Below are positions 1 to 29,771 of a DNA stretch of 29,771 bases, piece after piece; within the stretch, counting starts at the first letter, position 1; every line of letters starts with the position of its first letter. This DNA comes from a virus. The position numbers were made by a program, and so were the translations under genes. Below the pieces are notes generated by a model. That model saw only the letters and a program-made list of their open reading frames with translations. It ran no database searches and was not told the DNA's origin. The stretch is taken from positions 1 to 29,771 of IMG/VR virus record IMGVR_UViG_3300036801_000251; one strand, written 5' to 3'.

Positions 1-856
1 CCCGGTCGAAGGGTCATCATTACGCCTCGCGGCATCGTCTCCCCTCGCACGCTTGGGGCGACCTGACCGCCGTCCTAGTGATCGTCGACGCCCCATCGTC
101 TCCCCTCGCACGCTTGGGGCGACCAATGACGGCCATCGCCGCGTTCAGCGCGTTTAACGTCTCCCCTCGCACGCTTGGGGCGACCTGGGCGCGACAGACG
201 AGGATATCCATTGGGCACCGTCTCCCCTCGCACGCTTGGGGCGACCGGAACTCCGAGGCGCGGCCAGCTGCCGCCGTACCGTCTCCCCTCGCACGCTTGG
301 GGCGACCAGGCCCATCCTGCGGAGTTCATCTCGCCGTCGCCGTCTCCCCTCGCACGCTTGGGGCGACCTTGAAAATTTTGTGGAAATCTCGATTAACCAG
401 CCGTCTCCCCTCGCACGCTTGGGGCGACCATTTTGCCGACGGCCGAGCAATCGTCTCCCCACCGTCTCCCCTCGCACGCTTGGGGCGACCTTTCATGAAG
501 GCGTCACGCAGGGCGGAGTCAAACGTCTCCCCTCGCACGCTTGGGGCGACCTATGCTAGAGACGCCTCCGCATTCAGGGAGAAACGTCTCCCCTCGCACG
601 CTTGGGGCGACCTATTTGGGCGCTGACCAAGAACCTAGATTAAAACGTCTCCCCTCGCACGCTTGGGGCGACCCCCCACCGGCAAGCCATATCCCGGAGA
701 GTTTGACGTCTCCCCTCGCACGCTTGGGGCGACCCGCTCAGTTGCGCTTGACGCGCGCCATGCACTGCGTCTCCCCTCGCACGCTTGGGGCGACCATGGA
801 AAGCCGGTCCGCTCCTTCAGCTCAACGCCGTCTCCCCTCGCACGCTTGGGGCGACC
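1..856 (-). CRISPR. CRISPR array, at least 14 repeats, left end open
   Basis: Fourteen identical 28-bp repeats start at 36, 97, 158, 219, 280, 341, 402, 463, 524, 585, 646, 707, 768 and 829. The period is exactly 61 bp, so every spacer is 33 bp. On the plus strand the repeat begins CGTCTCCCC and ends TTGGGGCGACC, and the CCCC/GGGG arms can form a hairpin. Bases 1-2 are CC, as expected for the end of a further repeat, and 3-35 is another 33-bp spacer, so the array runs off the window. Period and hairpin resemble type I-E arrays, which suits the I-E-like Cas1 and Cas2. I favour leftward transcription because cas genes and the candidate tracrRNA lie to the right and the right-most repeat is intact. 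Repeat similarity to I-E units would instead suggest the plus strand. No spacer match was noticed within the window, but no exhaustive check was made. Confidence 0.98.
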
Positions 857-904
857 TCTAGCCGCTAAGTCGCTGTCGCCCATCCACAATTTCAAAGAGC
901 GGTC

Positions 905-1092
905 GGTCGGCCGAAGCCTGCGAAGGTTCCCCCCGCACCGCCATGTCTCGTAGACCCCAGATGGGTTCCGCCGACAGAGGGCGCTCAGATGCCGTGGCCC
1001 GCTGGAAACACGGGACTTACTTCGGCAGCCCCGGCGCCCTCAAGCGGGCGACCGAGACGGGCTTAACGTCGGGTTTAGACAAACCCTAGACC
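905..1092 (-). ncRNA. Candidate tracrRNA with anti-repeat
   Basis: Bases 905-926 match the reverse complement of the first-transcribed 22 bases of the (minus-strand) repeat at 18 of 22 positions, including the non-palindromic blocks AAGC and TGCGA, so it can act as an anti-repeat. To its right, 978-984 pairs with 1034-1040 (AGGGCGC/GCGCCCT). Nested inside, 991-994 pairs with 1023-1026 (GCCG/CGGC) and 998-1001 with 1011-1014 (CCCG/CGGG). A further hairpin lies at 1071-1086. Read leftward, this gives a structured 5' part and a 3' anti-repeat placed between the cas genes and the array, as in tracrRNA-dependent type V systems such as Cas12f or Cas12k. The ends and the direction are inferred. It could instead be a decayed inverted repeat. 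Confidence 0.4.
1071..1086. terminator. Hairpin downstream of cas2
   Basis: A perfect 6-bp stem GGGTTT/AAACCC with a four-base AGAC loop starts 25 bp past the cas2 stop codon. There is no T-run on either side, so it is not a classical intrinsic terminator. It may be an RNA-processing or structural element of the candidate tracrRNA. Confidence 0.3.
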
Positions 1093-1110
1093 ACCCGAAG
1101 GCAGTGAAGC

Positions 1111-1416
1111 TTATTTGGATGACAATTCACGTCGCGTCAAGAGTAAATCATCAACATCGGTAATTTCTCGTCTCGGAATGCCCAGCGTCTTCATCCCGAT
1201 ATTCGACGCCGCGTCACGGTCGCGCCAGATCATAACAATAGAACCGCGCGACAGCACGCCGAACCATTCCGCCAATACATCCCATAATCTGTCGCGCACG
1301 TCACGATTGAGCCGCGAACTGACGTAAACGCCAGCGTCGACTTCCAGCATCGCCGACCGAAGATAGCCGCGATACCGATCCTGCACGTCGCGCGTGATGA
1401 CGATGGTCAGGCTCAT
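1111..1416 (-). CDS. cas2: CRISPR-associated Cas2, type I-E-like
   Basis: This 101-residue protein is the Cas2 subunit that bridges Cas1 dimers in the spacer-integration complex. It has the Cas2e pattern: an N-terminal beta strand (MSLTIVITRDV), then LEVDAGVYVSS, then a segment with DRLWDVLAEWFG followed by SIVMIWRDRDAASN and a short C-terminal tail. The MLEVDAGVYV core is characteristic of the I-E type and differs from the Cas2 proteins usually found with type V effectors. Its ATG overlaps the cas1 stop codon by four bases (ATGA), so the two are co-translated. It is the last gene of the operon before the array. Confidence 0.9.
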   Translation of the reverse strand: MSLTIVITRDVQDRYRGYLRSAMLEVDAGVYVSSRLNRDVRDRLWDVLAEWFGVLSRGSIVMIWRDRDAASNIGMKTLGIPRREITDVDDLLLTRRELSSK

Positions 1417-2276
1417 GGCGGCGCCTCCAATAGCGTCTTGATGCGATCGATCATGGTCGGAATGAGGTCGGTCTTCGCGAATATCGCATTGGCGTGACGG
1501 CGCACGAGTTGCTCAAGCGTTCGTTGGCTGCCCTTGGCCTCGTTGACTGCTCCAAATGCGATGCGCAGCGTCACCTCATCGCGAAACAGATCGGCGATGT
1601 CGAGGACGAACGCCTGCGAGGAATCCTCGTGGACGAAGCCGAGCTGCGGGATTACGGCCATCGCAGCAACCGCTATCGAAGCCGCCGCGACCACAGCGCT
1701 CGACGCGTGGTTGATCGCCTGATTCGGCGGGTCTGCCGCCTGTGGATTGCCACGGTCGTATCGCCGTCCACGCCATTCGACGCCGAACTCTTCGGCGACT
1801 CGCTTGTAAGCCTCTTTGACATGCGAGCCCTCGATGCCCCGCAAAACTTCGATATCACGATGCGGCAGGATCTCGCCGAGCCGAAGCGCATACATCTTTC
1901 GAGCAACGGCGATCCGCGATATCTGGCGCGCCCAAAGTTCCGCCTGGCGCCTGGCCAGCGCCGAGGTCGCGGCCATCAACGGCGGCGCGGTATAGAGACG
2001 AACGCCACCCTCGCCGATCGCGGCCAATCCCGTTCCCTGGTGGGCCAGAAGCCGGAGCGCATCATGCGTGACGCTCGATCCTGGCCCCAGCAGCACCATG
2101 GAAAGAGCCTGTTGCGGAATCTGATAGTCGCCTGCCGAAAGAGCGCCGCCGGCGGTCGTGAAGCGCAAACAGCCAGCTTCGACATCGAGTCGGCCGCGAT
2201 CGAGCCAAAGAAGGCCATGACGCGCGGAGTGAGGCATGCGGGTCTTGTCGAGACCTAGACGTCCGGGAAGCATCAC
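1413..2276 (-). CDS. cas1: CRISPR-associated Cas1 integrase, type I-E-like
   Basis: This 287-residue protein is the metal-dependent integrase that inserts new spacers at the leader end of the array. It starts like Cas1e (RLGLDKTRMPHS, then WLDRGRLDVE). The catalytic residues are visible: Glu149 in RGIEGSHVK, His216 in LGFVH, and Asp226/Asp229 in LDIADLF. The start is GTG at 2276 or the ATG that follows it at 2273, with no strong ribosome-binding site. A 60-bp gap separates it from the effector stop codon, and it overlaps cas2 by four bases. The adaptation pair therefore looks complete and active, while the effector beside it lacks RuvC catalytic residues. Confidence 0.93.
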   Translation of the reverse strand: MMLPGRLGLDKTRMPHSARHGLLWLDRGRLDVEAGCLRFTTAGGALSAGDYQIPQQALSMVLLGPGSSVTHDALRLLAHQGTGLAAIGEGGVRLYTAPPLMAATSALARRQAELWARQISRIAVARKMYALRLGEILPHRDIEVLRGIEGSHVKEAYKRVAEEFGVEWRGRRYDRGNPQAADPPNQAINHASSAVVAAASIAVAAMAVIPQLGFVHEDSSQAFVLDIADLFRDEVTLRIAFGAVNEAKGSQRTLEQLVRRHANAIFAKTDLIPTMIDRIKTLLEAPP

Positions 2277-2336
2277 GATGGCTCAATAATGGATCTTGAT
2301 GATAGCGATGAGATTGCAGCGAACATTGAAACTTCC

Positions 2337-4358
2337 TCACATTGCGGTTTCTTTTCTCTTCCGGGCATCCAGCTCGCGCTTGCTGACACGCGCCGCGTTG
2401 GCGGCGCGCCCGAGCTCGTTGCCGCAAGTGCTTCCATCAGGCAGCACGGCGTTGCAGCGCACGATTCTGCGGCCGTCCTGCCAATCGGGATGGATCGTGC
2501 CGCAGCGTGAGCAAACACAGGCATTGGCGTCGTGCTTGTCGATCTCGTGGAAACTGTCTTCGCCGCGCAGATCGGTGAACTTGTATTGCAGCACCGAGAC
2601 GATCCGAGCCATGGCCGCACGCCGCATCATTTTGCGGGCGATCTTCAGGCTTGCTTGCCGCCGCGGCTTGCCTTCATGCCGCTTGCGGCGACGTTCATGC
2701 CGTTTTTCCAATTTACCATCGCGGTCTTTCATCATTCCGGCGACGTCCATTTTCTGCACCGCGATGGCGTCGAACAGCCGGACGATTTTGGTTGTCGCAT
2801 CGTGGATGAAGTCGTCGCGCATCCCCTGGTCGATTTTCTCCAGCCGCGCGATCTCGTCCTTGGCCTGGTGAAAGCCGCGGCTGCGTCGCAATCGAGCAGC
2901 TTCCATCGGTGCGATGATCTTGCCGGCGTCGGCGGCGCGCTGGCGCTGCCACCGTTTACGGCGCATCAGTTTCTCTTCGCGTTTTTTTTGCACATCCAGC
3001 GTTCTGGAGAGCGCCCTGCAGACTTCCTTGTGTGCAGCCGCCAACTTTGCATCGACGGGTGGCATCGGATATTCTTTGATCGGCCGGCGGTCCTCATAGA
3101 CCGTAATCGGGATCGACGCATTGACCTTGACGCCGGCTGTGCGGCCCGTCTGCGGCAGTTGCTCAATCTGCCTCTGCCATTGCACGGACAGATACCATTG
3201 CCGGCCGCGCCGCCAGATACGCGCACCGATCATGCCGACTTCGGCGCCCTGCTTATATTGCCGTTCCTCTTTGCGCTCTTCGGCCTCCCGCCGCACCTTG
3301 CGCAATGCTTTCGGCTCATAAAAGATCGTGCCGACGCCATTCGGCAACTTGACGCCATTGGCCAGGAAATTCCAGAACACTGTCGTGTTCGGCAGATAGA
3401 CCGACCCGTCGGCAGCGCGCTTGCGACGCGGGAATCCGGTCTTGCGGCTTGGTTCGCCGCGGGCGACTTTGCCGCGTTCGCGCAGCATATTGCCGATGGC
3501 GCGATCGAGGTCCTTGACGACTGCCTGGGCGGCATGACTTGGCAGATCGCCGATCCATTCGGATTGCTTGACCCGTTTCAACCGCGCCATAATCTTTTGC
3601 AGCGTCAGGACGGGTATGAAAATACCCGGCCGGTTCGTCTTGGCGGTCTCCTGGGCCGCCTTGGCGGCGGTTTCCACCACCTGGCAATCGCAAGCGCCAC
3701 CATGCTCCTTCAGCCAGCTGATGATCGTCTCCACGTCGCCCGCGAGCTTTTTCCGGGTCAACCATGCCAGCGCATGCCGATGGGTATGCTGGCATCCGCC
3801 GCCGCGCAGCGCTTCCCGGACGCCGGCGAACAGGCCGAACATCAGATCGTCCTCCAATGGCAATCCGCTTGGACGCCAATGCCAGAAAATCTTTTCGAGA
3901 TAGGCCGGATCGACCGGCTCCGGTTTGGGCGCGATACGATTTATGCTGTCTTTGACGGCTTGGAATTCCGGCGTTTTTTTCTTCTTTTCCGTCTCCAATT
4001 GTTTCAACCTGGCCTTGAGCTCTTCACGTTCTTCCTCGCGCCCGACACCTGGCTCCTTGATGATCTTGCCTGGAACGACCAGCCCCTTGACGGTCTTGTC
4101 TGCGGCCCGCTTGCCGTCGCGGTAGATGCGCTCAGCCTCGACATAATCGTCCTTAACGATTTGCGCCCACATCGGCCGCCAAGCGAGGCCAGACCAGCGG
4201 TTCTCGCCGCTATAGGCGGCCTTTTGCAGATCGAGCATGAGGTTCCAGAGCTGGGTGGATCGCGCACACCAGCGTGCAAGCTTGCGCTGCTTGCTCTTCG
4301 AAGGATAGCAACGGATCTCTGTGCCGCGCATTCGCATTATTGTTGACTGATCAGCCAT
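2337..4358 (-). CDS. Compact Cas12-like (type V) effector with substituted RuvC site
   Basis: This 673-residue protein has Cas12/TnpB architecture. The N-terminal motif is RCYPSKSKQRKLARW, where the family has its YP..eQ..L opening. A coiled, basic middle and a C-terminal RuvC domain interrupted by a zinc ribbon follow (Cys616, Cys619, Cys635, Cys645). All three RuvC acids are replaced. The first strand reads AGVKVNA, with Lys411 where Asp is expected. The second motif reads AIAVQKMDVAGM, with Gln535 for Glu. The third reads LGRAANAAR, with Ala652 for the Asp of the RD-NAA motif. It probably binds crRNA-matched DNA without cutting, as Cas12m (type V-M) does, and size and context also fit V-M. 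The start at 4358 is chosen because it overlaps the upstream stop codon by eight bases; the open frame extends 34 codons further but runs through the upstream gene. The subtype is inferred. Confidence 0.85.
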   Translation of the reverse strand: MADQSTIMRMRGTEIRCYPSKSKQRKLARWCARSTQLWNLMLDLQKAAYSGENRWSGLAWRPMWAQIVKDDYVEAERIYRDGKRAADKTVKGLVVPGKIIKEPGVGREEEREELKARLKQLETEKKKKTPEFQAVKDSINRIAPKPEPVDPAYLEKIFWHWRPSGLPLEDDLMFGLFAGVREALRGGGCQHTHRHALAWLTRKKLAGDVETIISWLKEHGGACDCQVVETAAKAAQETAKTNRPGIFIPVLTLQKIMARLKRVKQSEWIGDLPSHAAQAVVKDLDRAIGNMLRERGKVARGEPSRKTGFPRRKRAADGSVYLPNTTVFWNFLANGVKLPNGVGTIFYEPKALRKVRREAEERKEERQYKQGAEVGMIGARIWRRGRQWYLSVQWQRQIEQLPQTGRTAGVKVNASIPITVYEDRRPIKEYPMPPVDAKLAAAHKEVCRALSRTLDVQKKREEKLMRRKRWQRQRAADAGKIIAPMEAARLRRSRGFHQAKDEIARLEKIDQGMRDDFIHDATTKIVRLFDAIAVQKMDVAGMMKDRDGKLEKRHERRRKRHEGKPRRQASLKIARKMMRRAAMARIVSVLQYKFTDLRGEDSFHEIDKHDANACVCSRCGTIHPDWQDGRRIVRCNAVLPDGSTCGNELGRAANAARVSKRELDARKRKETAM

Positions 4359-4635
4359 CTCCGTTCTGCTCCGTTCTGCGCCGAATTTCGCGATGGAGCC
4401 GCTCGATATTACGATCGATACGGGCTTTGTCCTGGGCAAGCAGATTACCGAACCGGGCAATCATGAAGCCGGCGCAGAGCAGCACGACCCATTTCCAGAT
4501 AAGCGTCTCCGCGTTGTAGAGCGCTGCGAAAATGGCGGCGAGCATCGCCGGGTAGCCGATCAAGATCGTCAGGATGTCGCCGGGGCGTTCCCGGTCGACG
4601 CCCTCAAGGTCCGGGCAAAGATCAGTGTCAGACAT
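4351..4635 (-). CDS. Small two-pass membrane protein in the CRISPR operon
   Basis: This 94-residue protein has two hydrophobic segments, about residues 21-40 (ILTILIGYPAMLAAIFAALY) and 46-60 (around WKWVVLLCAGFMIARF). A charged helix with heptad-like spacing (about 64-90, NLLAQDKARIDRNIERLHRE) follows. I do not recognise the family. It resembles small phage membrane proteins in size but sits between a LuxR-type gene and the effector, overlapping each by eight bases (ATGTCTGA at its start, ATGGCTGA at its end). The start at 4635 is chosen for that overlap; an in-frame ATG lies further upstream at 4707. It could anchor or sense at the membrane, or be a passenger of phage origin. Its role is unknown. 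Confidence 0.7.
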   Translation of the reverse strand: MSDTDLCPDLEGVDRERPGDILTILIGYPAMLAAIFAALYNAETLIWKWVVLLCAGFMIARFGNLLAQDKARIDRNIERLHREIRRRTEQNGDG

Positions 4636-4900
4636 CGGGTGGCCTTGCCCGTTTCGGGGGGGCGATATCGGCAACCCAGCCATGCCGCCCGGCAAGCGCG
4701 GCGACATGGGCGGCGTTTCTGGCGCCGGTCTTTCTGAGCACGCGCTGCCGATGCACCTCGACCGTGCGCGGCGACAGATCGAGCAGCCGTCCGATCATCT
4801 TTGTCGAAGTGCCATTGACGATGTGGCCGAGCACCTGCCATTCGCGCGGCGACAGCCTCGGGCACGCCAGCAGCCCGACCGGTTCAACGCCATCAGCCAT
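4628..4900 (-). CDS. LuxR-type helix-turn-helix protein
   Basis: This 90-residue protein is almost entirely a LuxR/GerE DNA-binding domain. LSPREWQVLGHIVNGTSTK (about 16-34) is the first helix pair and IGRLLDLSPRTVEVHRQRVL (about 36-55) the recognition part, followed by KTGARNAAHVAALAG. No receiver or ligand-binding domain is attached, so it may act as a stand-alone regulator or with a partner. The ATG at 4900 is chosen because it overlaps the XRE stop codon by eight bases (ATGGCTGA). The open frame extends upstream to 5071 but only through the XRE gene. It overlaps the membrane-protein gene downstream by eight bases. Its target is not evident. Confidence 0.85.
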   Translation of the reverse strand: MADGVEPVGLLACPRLSPREWQVLGHIVNGTSTKMIGRLLDLSPRTVEVHRQRVLRKTGARNAAHVAALAGRHGWVADIAPPKRARPPDV

Positions 4901-5249
4901 CGGTCCGCTCCAGGAATTCGTCGACATGGCCGATAAAATCGAGGGCGTCGATCCGTAGCTTCTTAGCATCGCTGCGGGCTTTGCCGATGGATTTGCGCCG
5001 CGATAGGATGTCCTCGACATCATCGTCGAAGAGCTCGGCGGGAGGGATATGAAGAATACGGCAATATTCATCGAGCCACTCCAGTGACATCGTCATATTG
5101 GCGGTTTCCAGCCGCTGCACGGTTTGCGCCGTCGTCTGCATATGATTCGCGATCTGCTTCAAGGTCAGCCCGCGCTCTTTCCGTATCGCTCTAAGCGCCG
5201 CGCCGATGCGCGCTGCAAGGCCAGTTGGTTTCTCACTGCGCATATCCAT
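4893..5249 (-). CDS. XRE-family helix-turn-helix regulator, first gene of the CRISPR operon
   Basis: This 118-residue protein has an N-terminal Cro/C1-type HTH: IGAALRAIRKERGLTLKQIA (about 13-32), then TTAQTVQRLETANMTMSLEWL (about 39-59), ending in CRILHIPPAELF. The C-terminal half is charged (DDDVEDILSRRKSIGKARSDAKKLR) and may be the oligomerisation part. It is the first gene after the terminator at 5474-5509, so the operon promoter should lie in 5250-5470, where such a protein would be expected to bind for autoregulation. The ATG at 5249 has another in-frame ATG two codons later. It overlaps the LuxR-type gene by eight bases. Confidence 0.87.
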   Translation of the reverse strand: MDMRSEKPTGLAARIGAALRAIRKERGLTLKQIANHMQTTAQTVQRLETANMTMSLEWLDEYCRILHIPPAELFDDDVEDILSRRKSIGKARSDAKKLRIDALDFIGHVDEFLERTDG

Positions 5250-5473
5250 GTCATCGACCCGTCACTTTTTCGCGATACCGATTCGTTCGCTGTACTGATT
5301 CGGCGGTTGGATGCTCGAGACCGTTTCGAGGGAGCCAAAAACAGCCCCGAGCATCCTCCACCCCGCTTTTTGCGCTCTCACGCGTAGTGGCCCTGGATCG
5401 GCGTCCCGTCGACGCTGAAGAAGATAAAACTGCCGGTTCATGGCTTTCCCGGTTTTTCAGGCCAGGAACAAAA
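5250..5473. promoter_or_regulatory. Presumed promoter region of the XRE-cas12-cas1-cas2 operon
   Basis: This gene-free stretch separates the CRISPR operon from the terminator of the upstream operon, so the operon promoter should be here. Two direct GATTCG elements lie at about 5280 and 5298, possibly XRE contacts. I see no strong -35/-10 pair and no copy of the phage operator TGCAC-N5-GTGCA, so the operon seems not to be directly under the phage repressor. Confidence 0.35.
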
Positions 5474-5509
5474 TCCGCCGAGGCTATGTTTGGGCGCAGC
5501 CTCGGCGGA
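5474..5509 (-). terminator. Intrinsic terminator upstream of the CRISPR operon
   Basis: A perfect 12-bp inverted repeat, TCCGCCGAGGCT (5474-5485) and AGCCTCGGCGGA (5498-5509), encloses a 12-base loop. On the minus strand the second arm is followed by TTTTG. It lies ten bases past the stop codon of the gene ending at 5519, so it ends the glycosyltransferase/small-gene operon and insulates the CRISPR operon. Confidence 0.8.
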
Positions 5510-5518
5510 CGCCCGGCT

Positions 5519-5791
5519 TCAGGGGCCGGGAGAAGCGGCGGCCAGAGAAGACCCACCGCTAAAGGTTTCGATCCTGTCGATCTGTAAAGCCTCGGGCGCG
5601 AGAAAGAGAACCGCGCTGGGCTCCCGCCTCGGCTCCAGATGTCGGTTGGCGGTCTCACAGAATGCCTCGGCTTCTCTGAGACTGTACCGGCCGGCATGAG
5701 AGGCAACTCCCATCGTCCCGCACGCACGAGGCCCAAGCCAGCCACGCTTCTCATTGAGCCAGATCAGATATTTTGCGCTGGTGTCGATCAT
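5519..5791 (-). CDS. Small phage hypothetical protein
   Basis: This 90-residue protein has no assigned function. The pattern KYLIWLNEKRGWLGPRACG, then AGRYSLREAEAFCETANRHL, resembles a family of short phage proteins with a W-GP...AGRY--eEA--iC--an arrangement. The ATG at 5791 has GGAG upstream at a long spacing. It is the last gene before the terminator at 5474-5509 and 24 bp downstream of the next gene on the same strand. The C-terminal end (SGGSSLAAASPGP) is low in complexity. Confidence 0.65.
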   Translation of the reverse strand: MIDTSAKYLIWLNEKRGWLGPRACGTMGVASHAGRYSLREAEAFCETANRHLEPRREPSAVLFLAPEALQIDRIETFSGGSSLAAASPGP

Positions 5792-5815
5792 TGGCTGCCG
5801 GTCTCCTTTCCGCCC

Positions 5816-6178
5816 CTACCACGCCACTTCCGTCAGCCGCTCGCTCTTCCTTGGCTCATCCCGCTCGCTGCGGATGAATTCGGCGTCGATGACTTGGCCT
5901 GATATGAGTTCGTCCCAATGCGAGGCGATGTATTCATGCGCTGGCGTCAGCGTGTGGCTATGCGATCCCCAATCGTATGGATCGCATATTGCTGACCCAT
6001 TTCCCCCCGCAAGCATGACGAAGAGCACGAACCGGCCATTTCCGATATCATCAGGCGCATAGCCGGCACGGAGGAGCAGCCATTCGTCGTTTGACGAGCC
6101 CGGATCGATCTGTAGCCGGATCGCCAGCATCGGCATGAATGTCGCCCGGTCGCGGACTTCGAAGAACTTGGTTTCCAT
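5816..6178 (-). CDS. Phage hypothetical protein (FEVRDRATFMP type)
   Basis: This 120-residue soluble protein has the order METKFFEVRDRATFMPMLAIRL, then LLLRAGY, then CDPYDWGSHSHTLTPAHEYIASHWDELISGQVIDAEFI. I associate this with a widespread phage/prophage hypothetical family of unknown function. The ATG at 6178 is preferred over the upstream frame opening at 6217 because the 13 extra residues overlap the neighbour. It starts four bases after the stop codon of the next gene upstream, so the two are probably co-translated. Confidence 0.7.
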   Translation of the reverse strand: METKFFEVRDRATFMPMLAIRLQIDPGSSNDEWLLLRAGYAPDDIGNGRFVLFVMLAGGNGSAICDPYDWGSHSHTLTPAHEYIASHWDELISGQVIDAEFIRSERDEPRKSERLTEVAW

Positions 6179-6182
6179 CGCG

Positions 6183-6581
6183 CTACTCCCCGACGCCGGT
6201 CTCAACCGCGCCGGCATAGGGCTGGAAAAGCCGCGATGAGACCGCCAGGGAGATCAGGCCGCCATCATTGTCGATAAAGGCGATCCGGATATCGAATTCG
6301 TGTCCGAAACAGGGCATGCCGGCTCTCGATTCGTCATCGAATAATGGCGGATCATAAAGATCGATCACGACAGCGACGGCGTCTATCGATGGCACCCGAT
6401 ATTCGCCGTTCCACCCCGGTTTCCATTCGACCAAATCGCCGAGCTTGAATTGATGCTGGCGCCTGAAATCCGCCCAATGATCGAGCAAGCGCCGGGCCTG
6501 CATCGGGCGCGGCAATTCGGCGGATGGCGCATTGTTATTTACGTGGCCTCTGAGCGGGATTTCAAAGCTCTGGATTCTCAT
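6183..6581 (-). CDS. Phage hypothetical protein
   Basis: This 132-residue protein of unknown function starts MRIQSFEIPLRGHVNNNAPS. It contains FKLGDLVEWKPGWNG, typical of small beta-rich domains, followed by several acidic stretches (VVIDLYDPPLFDDES, DIRIAFIDNDGGL). It probably forms a functional pair with the gene four bases downstream. I recognise no domain and see no catalytic motif. Confidence 0.65.
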   Translation of the reverse strand: MRIQSFEIPLRGHVNNNAPSAELPRPMQARRLLDHWADFRRQHQFKLGDLVEWKPGWNGEYRVPSIDAVAVVIDLYDPPLFDDESRAGMPCFGHEFDIRIAFIDNDGGLISLAVSSRLFQPYAGAVETGVGE

Positions 6582-6615
6582 TATTAATCCCCGTGGGTTG
6601 TCAGATAAGGCTCCG

Positions 6616-6816
6616 TCATGCGCTTCTTCGGCCAGCCTCTTGCTGGAAAGGCTGGCCGGTTGGCCCCGACCTGGTGACCTGCGTCCGGCGAAGGATCATC
6701 AGGATTTCGCCAGGCCAGGGCCACCTTCCCGACGCATCGTCGGGAACTGTGACCAGTGGCGGGAGGCGCCGCTGAAATTCATAGGTCTGGAACCGGTCAT
6801 CATTCCCCCACCACAT
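6616..6816 (-). CDS. Possible small protein overlapping the glycosyltransferase 3' end
   Basis: This 66-residue frame (MWWGNDDRFQTYEFQRRLPP, then RWPWPGEILMILRRTQVTRS) overlaps the end of the glycosyltransferase gene by 17 bases and fills an otherwise empty stretch of the same operon. Its 3' end includes a perfect 10-bp inverted repeat (6629-6638 with 6649-6658, CGGCCAGCCT), which is unusual inside a gene. Without homologues it could equally be noncoding DNA with a hairpin. Confidence 0.35.
   Translation of the reverse strand: MWWGNDDRFQTYEFQRRLPPLVTVPDDASGRWPWPGEILMILRRTQVTRSGPTGQPFQQEAGRRSA
6629..6658. repeat. Perfect hairpin between glycosyltransferase and small genes
   Basis: CGGCCAGCCT (6629-6638) and AGGCTGGCCG (6649-6658) form a 10-bp stem around a 10-base loop. 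No T-run follows on either strand, so a rho-independent terminator is not well supported. It may stabilise mRNA ends within the leftward operon. Confidence 0.5.
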
Positions 6817-7735
6817 GCAGATACGGCCTTGGCAGGCATCCTGTCATGGCTGTCGCCCGTCCTAGCCCTTTGGCAATCTTCTTGCCGCCGGCGAGCGCTC
6901 GCCGCTTGAACGTCGTCATGCCGCCGGCGATGAAAAGCGGACTCGCCAGGACTTCAAGCGCGCCGAAGACAATGCTGATCGGCACCGTATGCGCCTTGAT
7001 CAGTCCCGCGCGCAGCCAGCCTCTGTCGACGGCCAGCCGGCGCAGGTTTGATGCCGCACACCAGTAAGCGCGGCCGAATTGGGCGCGATATGTGAGCCTT
7101 TCGGCATGGACCGTTTCGTGAGTGATCGCGCGCTCGGTGCGCCGGATCTGGAAGCCGCGTTTGTAGGCCTCGGTGAAAAACTCCTGATCCTCGCCGCCCA
7201 TGAGCCCGAGCGCTTCATTGAAGCGCAGTCCCGCGCCGATCAGATCGGTGCTGAATCGCACATTGTTGGTATACGCCGTTTTCACGGCCTCGCCTTCGCG
7301 CCGTCGCGGCTTTTGGCGGCGCGTCCCCCAGAACGGCAACGGGTCCGGATAGATGAGCTCCTGCCGTCCCATCAGCACTGGGGTGGCGCGATATTCCGGC
7401 GCCATCAGGGCCGCAATCCAATCCGGGTCGGCGACCTCATCGTCATCGATGAAGGCGACCCAATCGAAACAATGCCGTAATTTGGCGTGATCCAGCACGG
7501 CGTTCCTGGCGATCGCAATGCCGCGCCGCCGGACATGCTTGTATTTGAGCGGGAGCCAGGATCGACCCGCGATGCGCTGGACCACGTCACGCGCCGATGG
7601 ATTACGGTCATTATCGACAACGATGGTCTCGACGACGATATCGGAACTGAACAACTGCTCAACGAGACTGTCGAGACAGCGCTCCAGCATTTTTGGACGC
7701 AGGCATGTGCAGACCCCGATCAGCACGCGCTGCAT
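6800..7735 (-). CDS. Family 2 glycosyltransferase, ExoM-like
   Basis: This 311-residue GT-A fold glycosyltransferase probably transfers a sugar from a nucleotide sugar onto a surface polysaccharide at the inner membrane. RVLIGVCTCLRPKMLERCLDSL and VETIVVDNDRNPSAR are close to the N-terminal pattern of succinoglycan ExoM-type enzymes. The metal-binding DDDE is at 97-100 (WVAFIDDDE), and GLMGGEDQEFF supplies the later acidic motif. The C-terminal 60 residues are hydrophobic and basic, suggesting membrane association. The ATG at 7735 overlaps the TGA of the membrane-protein gene (TGATG). Being behind a phage-type operator, it may modify the surface of a lysogen (inference). Confidence 0.85.
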   Translation of the reverse strand: MQRVLIGVCTCLRPKMLERCLDSLVEQLFSSDIVVETIVVDNDRNPSARDVVQRIAGRSWLPLKYKHVRRRGIAIARNAVLDHAKLRHCFDWVAFIDDDEVADPDWIAALMAPEYRATPVLMGRQELIYPDPLPFWGTRRQKPRRREGEAVKTAYTNNVRFSTDLIGAGLRFNEALGLMGGEDQEFFTEAYKRGFQIRRTERAITHETVHAERLTYRAQFGRAYWCAASNLRRLAVDRGWLRAGLIKAHTVPISIVFGALEVLASPLFIAGGMTTFKRRALAGGKKIAKGLGRATAMTGCLPRPYLHVVGE

Positions 7736-8004
7736 CACAGCATCCCCCCGATCCACCCCGACACCGCGACGGCCGCAGACCCGAGCAGCCAGACCGCGAC
7801 CACCAGGACGATGCCGGCGGCCATGGCCATGACGGCTCCGAGAATGGGTCGCCGAGAGGTCTGTGTACGGAACGGAGCCGCACCGTCCGTGGCAATGGCG
7901 GGATCGCAGCCGTTCGAACCGAAATCGGTGGTCCGATCAAAAAACATATGCGGACGGTGTGCACATTTATGCACATCGCGGCCCGCCAAATGGCGTTCCG
8001 ACAT
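7735..8004 (-). CDS. Small single-pass membrane protein coupled to the glycosyltransferase
   Basis: This protein of up to 89 residues has one strong C-terminal transmembrane segment (about residues 53-85, ILGAVMAMAAGIVLVVAVWL followed by LGSAAVAVSGW). The N-terminal part is polar and His/Arg-rich. The start could instead be the ATG at 7947 (MFFDRTTDFG), giving a 70-residue protein, because the longer frame covers the TGTGCA...TGCACA motif at 7958-7975. The stop codon overlaps the glycosyltransferase start (TGATG), so the two are translationally coupled and probably act together at the membrane. Confidence 0.6.
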   Translation of the reverse strand: MSERHLAGRDVHKCAHRPHMFFDRTTDFGSNGCDPAIATDGAAPFRTQTSRRPILGAVMAMAAGIVLVVAVWLLGSAAVAVSGWIGGML

Positions 8005-8232
8005 CGCTCAATCCCCTCGCATCCAGTGCATTTCCACTGTGGCGTAAAGAAATGCACGGTGCAAGCGCAAAATTGCACATGTTGTGCATTTTGTGCTGCA
8101 CAAGTGCTTTGCATAATCCGGCATAGGGAAAATTACGTAAGCGGATCTCGAGACGGGGATAATCAGCGGTCGGAGGGATTGTCAGCGCAGCTGGCCAACA
8201 GCGAATGCGGGCCGCCAATGTCTGGCCTCGGT
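8005..8232 (-). promoter_or_regulatory. Promoter/operator region of the membrane protein-glycosyltransferase operon
   Basis: There is no gene here. The stretch is dense in TGCAC/GTGCA elements: TGCACATGTTGTGCA at 8074-8088, the palindromes TGCACGGTGCA at 8053-8063 and TTGTGCTGCACAA at 8091-8103, and TGTGCA-CATTTA-TGCACA at 7958-7975 just downstream. The first has the same TGCAC-N5-GTGCA form as the sites at the phage repressor. No clear -35/-10 pair could be fixed. Confidence 0.6.
8074..8088. promoter_or_regulatory. Phage repressor-type operator (TGCAC-N5-GTGCA)
   Basis: TGCACATGTTGTGCA is a perfect dyad with 6-base arms TGCACA/TGTGCA around TGT. It matches the operators flanking the repressor gene at 17.2-18.2 kb although it lies to the left of the integrase. 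Confidence 0.65.
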
Positions 8233-8397
8233 TCAGGCCAGGTTGAGACGCGCCAATTCCGCCGCAAACTCGAAACGGAGTTGCGCCGCCTCGTCATCCG
8301 GCAGCCAGTTTGTCATTTGGGGAAAAATCTTCGCGTTGAGCAGCGCCCGCTTGCGGTCCCAGGGCAAGGTCTCGGCGGCACGCATTTCAGCGAGCAT
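8233..8397 (-). CDS. Small hypothetical protein
   Basis: This 54-residue protein, MLAEMRAAETLPWDRKRALL then NAKIFPQMTNWLPDDEAAQL, then RFEFAAELARLNLA, is predicted helical and acidic. The start at 8397 is chosen because GGTGGA precedes it and longer starts (8436, 8466) run into the upstream gene. It begins 13 bases after the stop of the Cys-rich gene and would be co-transcribed with it. I know no family for it. Confidence 0.5.
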   Translation of the reverse strand: MLAEMRAAETLPWDRKRALLNAKIFPQMTNWLPDDEAAQLRFEFAAELARLNLA

Positions 8398-8410
8398 CGT
8401 CCACCATCGT

Positions 8411-8839
8411 CTACTCCATCCAATTAACACAGCCATCGGTCTCGCATCTGCCGTGGACGTGCCCATTATATGCCGCTATCGAGAGATGAAGTCGGCCCCT
8501 GCAAGCCGGGCATTCGACGACTTCTCGCGCTGACTTGCCCTTGTGCTTCTGTCGCCATGGGGCGATGCCCTTCATGACGGTCGCCACCTTGCCCATGTGC
8601 CCCTGCACCCAAATCTCATGCGCAGCCATCTCTTCCGCCGTCGGAAGGCGCAAGTGCGGGCATGATTTCGCGCCCGGTTTCGGCTTGCCCTTGAGCAAAA
8701 AGCAGGGACGTTCGGCGAATGGCGTGCCATGAAAATCGTTATAGCTGACACCCACCTCACACGTATCAAATTGACCGATGCTTCGAAAATGAATGCACCA
8801 GCCATCGGAATAGCCGGGATCGCCTTTGCGCTTACTCAA
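8411..8839 (-). CDS. Cys/His-rich phage protein, probable zinc binder
   Basis: This 142-residue protein starts MSKRKGDPGYSDGWCIHFRS and has Cys residues throughout. The C-terminal segment CPACRGRLHL...GHVHGRCETDGC is a probable zinc ribbon. The first part (DTCEVGVSYNDF, PCFLLKGKPKPGAKSCPHLR) is a pattern I associate with hypothetical proteins of alphaproteobacterial phages. The start codon is TTG at 8839 with GAGGAG ten bases upstream. Its leader contains the 19-bp element found again at 9126-9144. Function unknown. Confidence 0.75.
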   Translation of the reverse strand: MSKRKGDPGYSDGWCIHFRSIGQFDTCEVGVSYNDFHGTPFAERPCFLLKGKPKPGAKSCPHLRLPTAEEMAAHEIWVQGHMGKVATVMKGIAPWRQKHKGKSAREVVECPACRGRLHLSIAAYNGHVHGRCETDGCVNWME

Positions 8840-8847
8840 ACTGCTCT

Positions 8848-8866
8848 CCTCTTCGATAGCTTCAAA
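8848..8866 (-). repeat. Duplicated 19-bp gene leader, copy 1
   Basis: On the minus strand TTTGAAGCTATC-G-AAGAGG lies directly upstream of the TTG start at 8839 and includes part of its ribosome-binding site. A copy with one mismatch is at 9126-9144. Confidence 0.75.
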
Positions 8867-8937
8867 ATGACGGGGTCTCTCCCTCCTGTCGCGTCCATAT
8901 CTCAGACGTTGCAGTCGCCCTCCGCCGGGCGACCGGC

Positions 8938-9114
8938 CTACTTAGGGACTCCCCCCGCCGACGCTTTGGTTCCTGGTCTGCGGGCTTCATCATCCCCTTT
9001 CGCATGGGATCCGCGTTTTACGTTCCGAAGGCAACGTCCGGCGTTGAAGCATTTCGCCCCATGGCCTTCGCCGCACCAACTCGGCGTGCATGGTTGACTA
9101 TCCTCGCCGCCCAT
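8938..9114 (-). CDS. Possible small Cys-rich protein
   Basis: This 58-residue frame, MGGEDSQPCTPSWCGEGHGA then KCFNAGRCLRNVKRG, has two Cys pairs (CTPSWC and CFNAGRC) that could bind a metal. A strong purine-rich stretch (GGAAGGCGGGG) precedes the ATG at 9114. Its leader carries the same 19-bp element as the gene at 8411-8839. The frame also opens at 9189. It lies between the integrase and the Cys-rich gene on the same strand. No family is recognised. Confidence 0.45.
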   Translation of the reverse strand: MGGEDSQPCTPSWCGEGHGAKCFNAGRCLRNVKRGSHAKGDDEARRPGTKASAGGVPK

Positions 9115-9125
9115 CACCCCGCCTT

Positions 9126-9144
9126 CCTCTTGGATAGCTTCAAA
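9126..9144 (-). repeat. Duplicated 19-bp gene leader, copy 2
   Basis: On the minus strand TTTGAAGCTATC-C-AAGAGG differs at one base from the copy at 8848-8866 and lies upstream of the possible gene starting at 9114. The pair suggests duplication of a translation-initiation segment. Confidence 0.75.
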
Positions 9145-9176
9145 TCGATCACATTGGCCGGCTCGGCCCCCTTTTT

Positions 9177-9370
9177 GGGTGGGACACAAACGGCGAAAAG
9201 CTTAATAAAAATCAAAATAAAAATGAGTCCCACCGCCGTTTAAGTTGTTGTTTCCACTAGAAAAAGAAAGAAAAGATAAAACTTTATCTGCTTAAATTGA
9301 GCATTGATTTCATTGGTGTTTCTCGCTAAATGGTCCCACCGATGGAAAATCGGGAGCGAAAGTGGGACAC
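9177..9370. other. Putative attachment (attP/attL) region downstream of the integrase
   Basis: This AT-rich segment lies just past the integrase stop codon. It contains four copies of the 7-mer GTGGGAC: plus strand at 9179-9185 and 9362-9368, minus strand at 9227-9233 and 9333-9339. These are symmetric outside an AT-rich core, and a perfect inverted repeat AGATAAA-AC-TTTATCT lies at 9274-9289. The arrangement resembles arm-type and core-type integrase sites. The crossover core cannot be identified without the other end. Confidence 0.45.
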
Positions 9371-9376
9371 ATTTGT

Positions 9377-10465
9377 TCAAGTCTCGTTCCGCCTTTTCGA
9401 GAGCAAATGGATGCTTGCGCCAGCGATCTTTTTGCGGTTCGCGGCCCGCGTATATTTGCTCGCCATGCTGGCTGTTTTCCAGCCAAAAATTGCCATCATT
9501 TGCTGTTCTGTCGCACCATTCTCGGCAGCTAAACAGGCCCCAGCTTTTCGCAGGCCATGAGCGCTGCAATGCCCCAGCTTGGCCTCCTTACACCATTGCT
9601 TGAAACGAGACGAAAAGCCCGCCGCGGACCATGGCCGGTCCCATTCGCTGGTCAGATATGTGAGATGTCCACAGCGCGTTGCCAAGATCACTTTTTGCAG
9701 CTCCGGCAAAATCGGCACATGGACGGTTACGTTAGTCTTCTTCGTCTTCTGAGGCTTGAGGACCAGCGCGCCATCAGCATCGACGTGCTGGGGGCCAATG
9801 CGGATGACATCGCTTCGACGCAGCCCGGTATAGGCGAGCAGCGCGAGGGCGAGACGCGCCTGGGTTCCTATCTGGTGGACAGCCTCGTATTGTTTGATCT
9901 CCTCGGTTGCCCAGGTATGATAGCCTTCAGTCGATATTCCGATTTTCGGCACGTCGCGCGCCGGATTGACTTCGGCAAGGTTCTCCTCGATTGCCCATTT
10001 GAAGAGAGTGCTCAGGGCGCTGACCCAATTGTTCGCTGCGTTCGGGGCGTCTTTCTTGCGGTTGCGGAGCATCCGAACGCTCTTTTCCGACATCTGCACG
10101 AAGGGCAGGTCGCCAATGCGCGTTGGATCATGGGGCGAGAGGGTTTCGGCGCAAATCGCCTTCAGAATATTCCGGCGGTCGCGCTGCGTATAAGAAGAAA
10201 GCCCACCGAACTCGATGGAAGAGAAATAGCTCTTGCGGAGCCATTCAAGCGTCCCGAGCGGTGCGCGCTCTAAAAGCGGTTGAGTAATTTTGACCGGCGG
10301 CGGCCTGCCTGCTAGAGCGGCGGCATGGGCCGCGTTGAACTCATCGGAGCCAGGCAGGCCAGGCAATCGGAGTTTGCCCTTGCGTCCGCGACGGCGAAAA
10401 TAATAGCGAACGTTCCCGTGCCGATCAACATCGGCGATAACATATTTGAGCCGCACCCTAACCAT
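9377..10465 (-). CDS. int: Tyrosine recombinase (phage integrase)
   Basis: This 362-residue protein catalyses site-specific integration and excision. The catalytic domain shows Arg217 (TGLRRSDV), the His303-x-x-Arg306 motif (SAHGLRK), Trp329 in the second His/Trp position (IFGWK) and the nucleophile Tyr338 (ASKYTR). The N-terminal part has an arm-binding-like beta start (VIADVDRHGNVRYYFRR) and a SAM-like core-binding region (about 70-165). The ATG at 10465 overlaps the TAA of the excisionase gene (TAATG); the open frame extends to 10489. It is followed by the GTGGGAC repeats of the putative attachment region. Confidence 0.95.
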   Translation of the reverse strand: MVRVRLKYVIADVDRHGNVRYYFRRRGRKGKLRLPGLPGSDEFNAAHAAALAGRPPPVKITQPLLERAPLGTLEWLRKSYFSSIEFGGLSSYTQRDRRNILKAICAETLSPHDPTRIGDLPFVQMSEKSVRMLRNRKKDAPNAANNWVSALSTLFKWAIEENLAEVNPARDVPKIGISTEGYHTWATEEIKQYEAVHQIGTQARLALALLAYTGLRRSDVIRIGPQHVDADGALVLKPQKTKKTNVTVHVPILPELQKVILATRCGHLTYLTSEWDRPWSAAGFSSRFKQWCKEAKLGHCSAHGLRKAGACLAAENGATEQQMMAIFGWKTASMASKYTRAANRKKIAGASIHLLSKRRNET

Positions 10466-10734
10466 TAAACATTGCTCATGGCGTCCCACGGATTGGTCGA
10501 GGCCGGTTTTGCGCCTTCCCTGTCAGGAAGACAAGTGAAGGCTTCGTCCAATGCCATGCGGTCCCAAATAATGCAGCCGCGGAACCGCTTCGGGGTAGGC
10601 ATGAACCCGTCGCGGATCATTTCATCGAAAGTACTCGGGGAGACCCCGACATATGCCGCCGCCTCCACACGCCTCAAGCCCCGCGGCGGCAGCGAGGCCG
10701 GAAGAACATTGCGGGGCTTGACATGCTCGTTCAT
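10465..10734 (-). CDS. AlpA/Xis-like excisionase
   Basis: This 89-residue protein has a winged-helix MerR/AlpA pattern: GLRRVEAAAYVGVSPSTFDE (about 19-38), then MIRDGFMPTPKRFRGCIIWD and RMALDEAF. Such proteins bend DNA at attachment sites and set the direction of recombination, and some also act as transcription activators. Its stop codon overlaps the integrase start (TAATG), an arrangement typical of excisionase-integrase pairs. The start at 10734 is the only good one. Confidence 0.85.
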   Translation of the reverse strand: MNEHVKPRNVLPASLPPRGLRRVEAAAYVGVSPSTFDEMIRDGFMPTPKRFRGCIIWDRMALDEAFTCLPDREGAKPASTNPWDAMSNV

Positions 10735-10771: not shown

Positions 10772-11224
10772 CTATTCTGAGCGTTCTTCGGCATCTTCGG
10801 TTCTGAACCATTCACGGCATCGAGGGCATTTCATCATGGCCGGCTTTTTCAGCTCAGTGCGGACCGCCTTCCCATCAGATACTTCAATGCCCCAGATATC
10901 CCCGACCTCTTCACCCTGGGCCGTCATTCGACCGCTAAATGACAGGTCTTGGATCTTCCGCTTGATCACCTGCATGATGACGTTGAGCGCCGTGATCATG
11001 CCGTAGGTTTTTTCGCTCCCATCCCATTCAAGGCCTGTGAAATCCTTGGCGAGACGAAGAGCCAGCCAACTGACCATATCCTCTTTCGTCGCTATGAAGC
11101 CGATGCTCTTGGCGTGTTCGGCGACATCGTCAATCTCAAGGATCTCATTGATCTCACGCAATTCAGCGGCAGTAAGATCGCGGCTGAATTTAATGACGCC
11201 CTCAAAGCTTGTGCTGTATCCCAT
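10772..11224 (-). CDS. Phage hypothetical protein, MGYSTSFEG type
   Basis: This 150-residue protein starts MGYSTSFEGVIKFSRDLTAA, which I associate with short phage and actinobacterial hypothetical proteins of unknown function (DUF6205-like start). The middle contains SWLALRLAKDFTGLEWDGSEK and the end a CPRCREWF pair that may be half of a zinc site. The ATG at 11224 is preferred over the opening at 11263. It follows the duplicated leader CCGGCAACTTTATGGAGG at 11234-11251, which supplies the GGAGG. Confidence 0.75.
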   Translation of the reverse strand: MGYSTSFEGVIKFSRDLTAAELREINEILEIDDVAEHAKSIGFIATKEDMVSWLALRLAKDFTGLEWDGSEKTYGMITALNVIMQVIKRKIQDLSFSGRMTAQGEEVGDIWGIEVSDGKAVRTELKKPAMMKCPRCREWFRTEDAEERSE

Positions 11225-18213: not shown

Positions 18214-18597
18214 ATGTCTGAACAAATCCCTACTTTCATTGAGCTTTTGTCGTGCATCGGTCGAACCGATGAGGAGATCGCGCTGGCTATGAATGTAAAA
18301 AAGTGCACGGCGCGTCAGTGGCGGGCGCGCGGGTCTCTGCGTCCAACGTACTGGCCTGCGCTGATTGAAGCGGTGCGGCGCAAAACCGGCCGGGAGATTT
18401 CTTACGATCTTCTCGGCCGTATAGCCGTGGCGACAGCCCCGGCCCCGCCGGCCCGTTCGCCGGCTGAGAATGACCGCATTGCAAAAGCGCGCCGCTCGCT
18501 TGCCGCCTATAAGGGCTGGAAGCGCCGCCGCGAAGCGCTCGTCCTATCTGAAGAGACCCAGGAACGGAAATCGACCGAATCCGCGGAGGCGGCATGA
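18214..18597 (+). CDS. Cro-like HTH protein
   Basis: This 127-residue protein has an N-terminal HTH: IPTFIELLSCIGRTDEEIAL, then AMNVKKCTARQWRARGSLRP and YWPALIEAVRRKTG. A disordered Ala/Pro/Arg segment and a basic helix (KARRSLAAYKGWKRRREALV) follow. As the first rightward gene opposite the repressor it is in the position of cro. The start at 18214 is preferred to 18178 because the longer frame runs through operator half-sites. It overlaps the GcrA-like gene by four bases (ATGA). Confidence 0.8.
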   Translation: MSEQIPTFIELLSCIGRTDEEIALAMNVKKCTARQWRARGSLRPTYWPALIEAVRRKTGREISYDLLGRIAVATAPAPPARSPAENDRIAKARRSLAAYKGWKRRREALVLSEETQERKSTESAEAA

Positions 18598-27638: not shown

Positions 27639-28031
27639 TTAAGCGTGCGCGGCTTCGTCAGTCCGCCGATAGGTCAGGCGCTTGCCTACCGCGCCTTGCA
27701 GCACGAGATTGGCGCGCTCGAAATCGTCAAAGCCGAGCTTGACGCGAGTGTTCCAGCGGAATGCGAATTCATCGGCATAACGTTGAAGGTGCTTTTCGGA
27801 AACCGAATGAAAGGTTCCGTACACGCCGCGCTTCAGGATGGCGAAAAAGCTCTCGGCGGTGTTCGTATGCCAGAACGTGCCGCGCACATATTCGTCGGCT
27901 GAATGATTGACCGATCCGTGACCGGAGAATTCCTTGCCGACGCCCTTATAGGCTTGGGCTTCATCGGTCATCAGATAGGACTTGCGATTGGCCTGAGTGA
28001 CCAGCGTCTTGCGCAGCGACAAATGATCCAT
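27639..28031 (-). pseudogene. C-terminal fragment of an ISXO2/IS1595-type transposase
   Basis: About 130 residues match the C-terminal part of the ISXO2-like DDE domain: SYLMTDEAQAYKGVGKEFSG, then HTNTAESFFAILKRGVYGTF and HLQRYADEFAFRWNTR. The Asp of LMTDEA and the Glu of TAESFF are present. The N-terminal zinc ribbon and the first catalytic Asp are missing. The fragment stops where the terminase gene begins on the other strand (28048). No inverted repeats or target duplication are seen, so it is an inactive remnant. The open frame to 28064 is not all transposase. Confidence 0.8.
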
Positions 28032-28047
28032 TAAACCACAATGACAG

Positions 28048-28856: not shown

Positions 28857-29771
28857 CGCTGGCGTCCTCCGTATCGAGACGCCTCGGGCTTTCGTCCCGC
28901 TTTTAGGCGGGCATCGGTACAAGGGCGCCAGAGGCGGACGCGGCGCGGCAAAGTCGCATTTCTACTGTGAGTTGCTGGTTGAGGATATGATCGCGGAGCA
29001 TCACCGCGTCGCCTGTCTTCGCGAGGTGCAGAGCAGCATCAAGGACTCGGTCAAGCAGCTGGTCGAGGACAAAATCCACAAGTTCGGCTATGCGGGTCGG
29101 TTTAAGATCACGGAAAAGGAGATTGTTGGCCCCAACGATAGCCTGATGATCTTCAAGGGCTTGAAGGGGGCGACGGCCACCTCAATGAAGTCTCTTGAGG
29201 GATATACGCGGGCCTTCGTCGAAGAAGCGCAGACGATCAGCCAAACATCGATCGATCTGCTTTACCCAACCATCCGTGCGCCGGGCTCGCAGATGATGTT
29301 CGGCTGGAACCCGATGTCGCCGGATGATCCGGTCGATAAGTTCTTCCGTGAGAATGTCGCGGCGGGCGATCCAGATTTTGTGCTGGTCGATGTCTCTTAT
29401 CTCGACAACCCATGGTTCCCGGATGAGTTGCGCCGGGACATGGAGCGCGACAAGCGCCGCGATTTCGAGAAATACCAGCATATCTGGCTGGGGCATTATC
29501 GCCGGCATTCGGAAGCCCGCGTATTCAAGAACTGGCGCGTCGATGAGGCCGAGATCCCGCATGACGCCAGGCCCTATTACGGCGCGGATTGGGGTTTCGC
29601 CGTCGATCCGAGCGTGCTGGTGCGGTGCTGGATCATCGCGGAAAAGACGCTCTACATCGACGCAGAGGCCTATAAGGTCGGCTGCGAGATCGACGATACG
29701 CCGGCGCTGTTCGACGAGATCGATGACGGTCACGCCAGGCAATGGCCAATCACCGCGGATTCGGCCCGGCC
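28834..29771 (+). CDS. terL: Terminase large subunit, 3' end cut by the window edge
   Basis: About 312 residues of the packaging motor are visible. After MTERSAADAGVLRIETPRAF the ATPase domain has the Walker A-like GGRGAAKS at 34-41, and YTRAFVEEAQTIS is the Walker B region with its acidic pair. The nuclease domain begins with YYGADWGFAVDPSVLV, whose Asp is the first metal ligand of the RNase H-like fold. The start is GTG at 28834, overlapping the previous gene; no ATG lies nearby in frame. The gene continues past 29771. Confidence 0.9.
   Translation, partial: MTERSAADAGVLRIETPRAFVPLLGGHRYKGARGGRGAAKSHFYCELLVEDMIAEHHRVACLREVQSSIKDSVKQLVEDKIHKFGYAGRFKITEKEIVGPNDSLMIFKGLKGATATSMKSLEGYTRAFVEEAQTISQTSIDLLYPTIRAPGSQMMFGWNPMSPDDPVDKFFRENVAAGDPDFVLVDVSYLDNPWFPDELRRDMERDKRRDFEKYQHIWLGHYRRHSEARVFKNWRVDEAEIPHDARPYYGADWGFAVDPSVLVRCWIIAEKTLYIDAEAYKVGCEIDDTPALFDEIDDGHARQWPITADSAR

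Follow-up and report, generated by a model that had tools for sequence, protein, structure and literature searches.

In type V-K and in most type V-M CRISPR (clustered regularly interspaced short palindromic repeats) systems, the D-E-D triad of the RuvC nuclease is lost. By binding alone, the V-M effector Cas12m silences transcription and interferes with plasmids and phages (PMC10442227, PMC11013384). It uses CRISPR RNA (crRNA) alone, without a trans-activating CRISPR RNA (tracrRNA) (PMC11013384), and its reported triads are H-D-D, D-E-D, N-D-D, H-E-K and H-Q-K (PMC10442227, PMC11013384). Binding-only interference thus has precedents in types V-M and V-C (PMC10442227, PMC11013384, PMC12669027), and RuvC inactivation has arisen many times in type V, including in V-O and V-P (PMC12669027). 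Here, we describe a Cas12 effector of the PADLOC Cas12_x2 family, predicted to be nuclease-dead, which is encoded at 2337..4358 on the minus strand (ATG start, 673 amino acids [aa]) of IMG/VR record IMGVR_UViG_3300036801_000251; the whole 29,771-nucleotide (nt) stretch is called the window below. With a probability of about two-thirds, we consider this gene to be part of a complete temperate-phage CRISPR-Cas locus, in which a dual-RNA-guided, non-cleaving Cas12 would keep competing elements from being transcribed or replicated.

The best family of the window Cas12 was PADLOC Cas12_x2 (PDLC01226, labelled CAS-V-F), with 524 bits and E=1e-157 over profile positions 11-544 of 549. An ortholog from another phage lineage (L009) matched the same profile end to end with 1,102 bits. 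The next best profiles were Cas12u4, Cas12f and Cas12u2, and Pfam OrfB_IS605 and NCBIfam guided_TnpB gave weak matches. Using Foldseek, we found TnpB, Cas12p, Cas12f and Cas12m as the best matches of the window effector. PADLOC, NCBIfam and Foldseek thus all point to an effector with a TnpB-like RuvC fold, as in other type V systems. An earlier reading of the same DNA (the original prediction) had compared the gene with Cas12m. Indeed, like Cas12m, the window protein is a compact TnpB-derived effector with a noncanonical RuvC site and would act by binding. However, its family has none of the reported Cas12m triads and carries a covarying predicted tracrRNA and anti-repeat, and in the Foldseek ranking of the window protein Cas12m stands below TnpB, Cas12p and Cas12f; no Cas12m model appeared among the profile matches at E<=0.1, although it was not checked whether the libraries include one. 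On the basis of the tracrRNA and the triad, we rejected an affiliation with Cas12m in favor of Cas12_x2, which is filed under V-F.

The central claim of the original prediction, that Lys411, Gln535 and Ala652 replace Asp, Glu and Asp at the three RuvC positions, was borne out by alignment with the canonical TnpB WP_112901307.1, which set the register of the triad. Coordinates and residues had been given correctly, and only the strand (minus) had been left unstated. The Lys411 codon occupies the RuvC-I Asp position (3126..3128), the Gln535 codon the RuvC-II Glu position (2754..2756) and the Ala652 codon the RuvC-III Asp position (2403..2405), all on the minus strand. Independently, profile alignment with the PDB structure of ISDra2 TnpB gave the second and third sites, placing Gln at the Glu position and the RuvC-III residue at the Asp position. 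Moreover, the substitution is clade-wide, a point missed in the original prediction. Seven further phage lineages in IMG/VR carry an ortholog, about 43% identical; 8/8 lineages have Lys at the first site (codons AAG or AAA, which differ from Asp codons by two bases), 7/8 have Gln at the second, where L011 has Pro, and Asn, Thr or Ala occupies the third. Instead of the active D-E-D nuclease typical of type V, we thus observed K-Q-A in the window and K-Q/P-N/T/A in the family.

We then located the three sites in the predicted secondary structure. In the AlphaFold2 models, site 411 ends strand b1 (407-411), site 535 ends strand b4 (531-535) and site 652 lies at the start of the last helix (651-672). 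These predicted positions are those of the RuvC topology, and the RuvC-only model reached a mean predicted local distance difference test (pLDDT) score of 72. In these models, which are of medium confidence, the predicted secondary structure agrees with the three assignments. In the family alignment, no other acidic residue is conserved near the RuvC site. The Cys motif of the zinc ribbon is intact in the window protein, as originally described. In the L007 ortholog (L007:3-665), the zinc-ribbon cysteines are lost (ASSVTG, VRATE) and the remaining RuvC region is conserved.

Every member has lost all three acidic metal ligands and has a Lys at the first site, from which we infer that cleavage is very unlikely. 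Divergent RuvC motifs exist in some Cas12 families, as noted for Cas12L (PMC12607003), and a RuvC domain that still cleaves through an unusual nonacidic or substituted active site could be imagined on this model. We regard this as highly improbable here, given the replacement of all three acids in every member, the invariant Lys and the lack of any other conserved acid at the site.

The way in which the orthologs were collected bears on this result. A search with the neighboring Cas1 yielded six further loci with a 70-74% identical Cas1 as well as a near-identical sister, and L013 was added by effector alignment. Scans by Cas1 alignment, by the recognition and wedge (REC/WED) region of the effector and by a tracrRNA DNA pattern recovered the same set plus L034, which overlaps L007 exactly over 127 nt and proved to be its complementary half. 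No D-E-D member was found among the orthologs recovered by any of these routes and, because the Cas1, REC and RNA scans are blind to the dead site, the missing D-E-D members are informative. One extra contig from the tracrRNA pattern (L043) was without recognizable cas genes or array and was taken as a chance match. Outside IMG/VR, no close relative was found in INPHARED, in PLSDB or in two scans of 84,980 species genomes.

The effector is maintained under purifying selection, and the Lys at site 411, shared by all lineages and two bases away from Asp, goes beyond chance. The ratio of nonsynonymous to synonymous substitution rates (dN/dS) against the 99%-identical sister was 0.087 for cas12, 0.037 for cas1 and 0.034 for cas2, and cas12 dN/dS between close orthologs was 0.13-0.15. 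A decaying remnant, in which the effector is dying while cas1-cas2 and the array persist, is therefore largely refuted by the ortholog set. The losses that would fit such a remnant are the deletion of cas1 and cas2 in L013 and the missing zinc-ribbon cysteines of L007. However, all complete loci have full-length open reading frames (ORFs), with dN/dS of 0.09-0.15, an invariant Lys and a coevolving tracrRNA, and in L013 it is the effector that outlived the adaptation genes. The earlier statement that the gene is not simply decaying thus holds well beyond the window.

In a further step, we investigated the 257-300 nt separating cas2 and the first repeat, which are conserved across lineages. In the window, this region holds a predicted tracrRNA (904..1101, minus strand), consisting of a scaffold and an anti-repeat, with nine helices supported by covariation. 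In the predicted helices, 91.7% of cells are paired, and 50 pair cells are changed on both sides, compared to 18.6 expected by shuffling (0/500); slid controls are not independent, because this alignment also served to derive the structure, but the contrast with shuffling is strong. The anti-repeat, 29 nt at the tracrRNA 3' end (904..932, minus strand), pairs with nucleotides 1-22 of the repeat. In the window, 19/22 positions pair without a gap, and 18-20 pairs form in each of eight loci with widely differing repeats. Ranked by the number of pairs over these eight loci, the cognate assignment of repeats to anti-repeats came first among 40,320 permutations, and 26 cells were changed on both sides of the duplex, compared to 11.3 expected (0/500). 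When duplexes were searched without constraints, z-scores alone did not pick out the anti-repeat in each locus, whereas the homologous, covarying site did. An Rfam search gave no match. Since repeat and anti-repeat coevolve, the array belongs to the window effector. In this respect the locus resembles V-F, where Cas12f needs a complex guide RNA, and the window has a predicted tracrRNA with an anti-repeat; it differs from Cas12f, which cleaves double-stranded DNA with an intact D-E-D, in its replaced triad.

The array itself (36..856, minus strand) comprises 14 identical 28-nt repeats and 13 complete 33-nt spacers and runs off the contig end. Arrays were present in 8/8 lineages, with 8-29 repeats of 28 nt and a 61-nt period throughout the family. 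A leader between the tracrRNA and the first repeat (857..903, minus strand) is conserved across the aligned loci, with TCTTTGAAA and TTAGCgGCTAGA conserved beside the repeat. In L010 and L007, repeats are degenerate at the end far from cas2, which would fit an entry of new spacers next to cas2. Sister phage G001, whose Cas12 is 99% identical, has 29 repeats and 0 spacers in common with the 13 complete window spacers, which implies past adaptation. Identical spacers occur twice within one array in L002 (L002:10751-10783 and 11056-11088) and in the L007 array.

Upstream of this RNA region, the minus strand carries, in order, an HTH_31 gene, a LuxR-type helix-turn-helix (HTH) gene, a gene for a small membrane-like protein, cas12, cas1 and cas2, followed by the intergenic RNA and the array. 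Both adaptation genes are of type I-E: cas1 (Cas1e; 1413..2276, minus strand) matched TIGR03638 with E=3e-90, and cas2 (Cas2e; 1111..1416, minus strand) matched TIGR01873 with E=5e-24. The Cas1 residues at the catalytic positions E149, H216, D226 and D229 are invariant in the family; in L013, the adaptation genes are deleted. In that 79-kb phage contig, a deletion fuses the cas1 start to the cas2 tail (L013:9999-10280); only the fused remnants are left, while effector, tracrRNA and array are intact. The L013 effector was thus kept without adaptation genes and outlived them. V-U and V-F loci are typically without adaptation genes (PMC11013384), and the cas1-cas2 pair sets the window locus apart from V-F, V-U4 and V-U2.

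The next nearest Cas1 in viral contigs (L026) is 49% identical and lies within an ordinary, full type I-E locus. The window family shares with type I-E the Cas1 and Cas2 families and a 61-nt repeat-spacer period, as in L026, but a single dead Cas12 replaces Cascade and Cas3. Searches for Cas3 and Cas7e on 10 member contigs found none, with L026 matching as a positive control, and an ordinary type I-E system with an accessory Cas12 was thereby ruled out. The same result weighs on a related explanation, in which the target is merely tagged by the dead Cas12 and then cut by a separately encoded nuclease (a host Cas3, another host nuclease or an unrecognized phage protein). Cas12m-Cas3 hybrids have been described (PMC10910872), and the type I-E origin of the adaptation module means that the host may have an I-E system of its own close at hand. 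Against this, no Cas3 or Cas7e lies on any member contig, no neighbor gene beyond cas1-cas2 is common to nearly all loci, and the coevolving anti-repeat ties the array to the window effector. We therefore consider recruitment of a nuclease unlikely. Even less probable, in our view, is a decoy or anti-CRISPR function, in which the dead effector or the array would interfere with a host CRISPR system. It has been proposed for phage-encoded, RuvC-dead Cas9, which is thought to sequester host crRNAs (PMC10910872, PMC11656645); such phage Cas9 is without an array, whereas the window phage has its own array, its own adaptation genes and a tracrRNA that covaries with its own repeat.

We also considered systems in which a dead effector serves another purpose. 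V-K shares with the window family, as do V-C, V-O, V-P and Cas12b3, an independent RuvC inactivation or noncleaving interference (PMC12669027), but V-K works in Tn7-like transposition and no transposon integrase was found in the window family. The rve (TnsB-type integrase) search gave no match on 9 member contigs with positive controls, and a TniQ search of member contigs was empty, though its control gave no match either. A CRISPR-associated transposon of the V-K kind was rejected for lack of a transposon integrase.

The genome around the locus is that of a phage, which the original prediction, like the type I-E adaptation module, had missed. The window encodes a phage integrase (9377..10489, minus strand; phrog_1, E=1e-40), a terminase large subunit (28894..29766, plus strand; phrog_2, E=6e-38) and a terminase small subunit (28048-28635), together with a CI-like S24 repressor, RecT and RecE homologs and a single-stranded DNA-binding protein. 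Integrases also occur in L008, L009 and L013, and in relatives integrase genes lie upstream, with genes for endolysin or tail proteins on the downstream side. The member contigs are thus temperate phages, to which the family is apparently confined. A protein with a GcrA cell-cycle regulator domain (18594-19241) points to an alphaproteobacterial host, and relatives of the window primase come from Caulobacter, Rhodobacter and Ruegeria phages, among others. The host is thus probably alphaproteobacterial. A fragment of an IS1595-family (ISXO2-like) transposase lies beside the terminase genes (27639-28064).

The neighbors of cas12 could point to another role. A LuxR/GerE-type HTH gene (4628..5071, minus strand; PF00196, E=1.5e-16), whose true start is probably downstream of the listed one, directly precedes cas12 in four lineages (the window, L006, L008 and L034) and overlaps the cas12 start in L006; its product is possibly a regulator or partner. 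TldR, nuclease-dead TnpB repressors carried by prophages, are an established precedent (PMC13418256) and, like them, the window effector is TnpB-derived, has a dead site and is encoded by a temperate phage. The locus might thus serve in regulation rather than in immunity: in a TldR-like or dCas12f/sigma-like manner, the dead Cas12, possibly with the HTH neighbor, would control transcription of host or phage genes at sites specified by the spacers. The lack of any spacer match to known phages or plasmids would fit this role. In contrast, TldR has a fixed guide beside its gene, without array or cas1-cas2. Arrays of 8-29 repeats with differing spacers and intact cas1-cas2 fit a memory of many invaders and not a fixed target, sister phages are without common spacers, and no spacer matches the phage's own genome. 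Moreover, the HTH gene was not found beside cas12 in L009 and L013. Regulation thus seems to us rather unlikely, though less so than the other alternatives considered.

Two further neighbors complete the locus. A Cro/CI-type HTH gene (4893..5249, minus strand; PF13560) has homologs near cas12 in L006, L008, L013 and L034. A small predicted membrane/coiled-coil protein (4351..4707, minus strand) was taken from the ORF list, gave no Pfam match and overlaps the cas12 start with its end. Within cas12, the REC region holds an inserted DUF2695 domain (aa 176-228; 3675..3833, minus strand; Pfam PF10905, E=2e-11), which the window protein has in addition to the Cas12_x2 family match. It is present as one copy in the window and L013, apparently as two in L009, and absent from L006, L008 and L010, and its conserved C-x-H...C-x-C pattern may form a metal site. 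Antisense to cas12, a 604-aa open frame (2532-4346, plus strand) is probably a by-product of the high GC content.

Several observations weigh against a phage-borne system that stores spacers and silences by binding. The full-length AlphaFold model is of low confidence (pLDDT 55.7), too poor for an overlay, and several member contigs are fragments. No protospacers for the window or L002 arrays were found in 50,697 phages and 72,556 plasmids, nor was one found among the fetched contigs. The difference in spacers could also come from recombination of whole arrays together with adaptation genes. Between window positions 1111-10489 and the L002 sister, synonymous divergence was 0 in the integrase and HTH genes, 0.037 in cas12, 0.085 in cas1 and 0.13 in cas2; since divergence climbs toward the array while the flanks are near-identical, recombination at the array end is an alternative source. 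Whichever the route, the spacers were acquired somewhere in the wider lineage. Finally, a noncanonical metal site or a host-encoded partner nuclease is possible.

Taken together, the data are best explained by interference without cleavage. In a locus that apparently can still adapt, the type I-E-like Cas1-Cas2 pair would store spacers, and the TnpB/Cas12f-like effector, guided by crRNA and tracrRNA, would bind matching DNA and leave it uncut. The invariant Lys at the first RuvC site may repel metal ions. It could also hold a phosphate of the non-target strand, as Omura et al. proposed for HQK-clade Cas12m, whose sites may bind that strand directly (PMC10442227). The bound R-loop would then block transcription or replication of the target, protecting lysogen and prophage from competing phages and plasmids. 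Of the transcription- or replication-blocking immune system proposed in the original prediction, binding without cutting thus stands as the best inference, and the likely role moves from a bacterial immune locus to phage competition. The phage location and the I-E adaptation module make competition between phages or other elements, or prophage immunity to superinfection, the likely role, and the position of the locus between lysogeny and late genes of temperate phages likewise makes protection of the lysogen likely. More tentatively, one may see here a new type V subtype exclusive to temperate phages, an adaptive and heritable repressor system in which a captured I-E spacer module feeds a clade-wide dead Cas12-tracrRNA effector that silences rivals and possibly, with a LuxR-type HTH partner, host genes. 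As DNA would never be cut in such a system, self-matching spacers need not be lethal; we think this broader view less probable than the one above.

The family has already been modelled as Cas12_x2, and in the accessible literature we found no account of an inactivated RuvC site, a tracrRNA, phage hosts or an I-E adaptation module for it. The clade-wide K-Q-x triad, the coevolving tracrRNA, the I-E adaptation module and the apparent confinement to temperate phages look new in that literature. The main threat to novelty is that the family may be identical to V-O or V-P, which are named among the inactivated type V subtypes (PMC12669027). With every RuvC ligand missing in eight lineages and a Lys conserved at the first site, the family is a natural dead Cas12 that goes further than the Cas12m triads reported so far. 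With a predicted tracrRNA and a repeat in hand, the system is ready for testing and perhaps for use as a compact natural CRISPR interference tool, and it opens spacer acquisition by a noncleaving CRISPR system and tolerance of self-targeting in a lysogen to experiment. If our interpretation is correct, a phage lineage has long kept a memory-writing CRISPR system without cutting, and binding alone would suffice for adaptive immunity to be retained.
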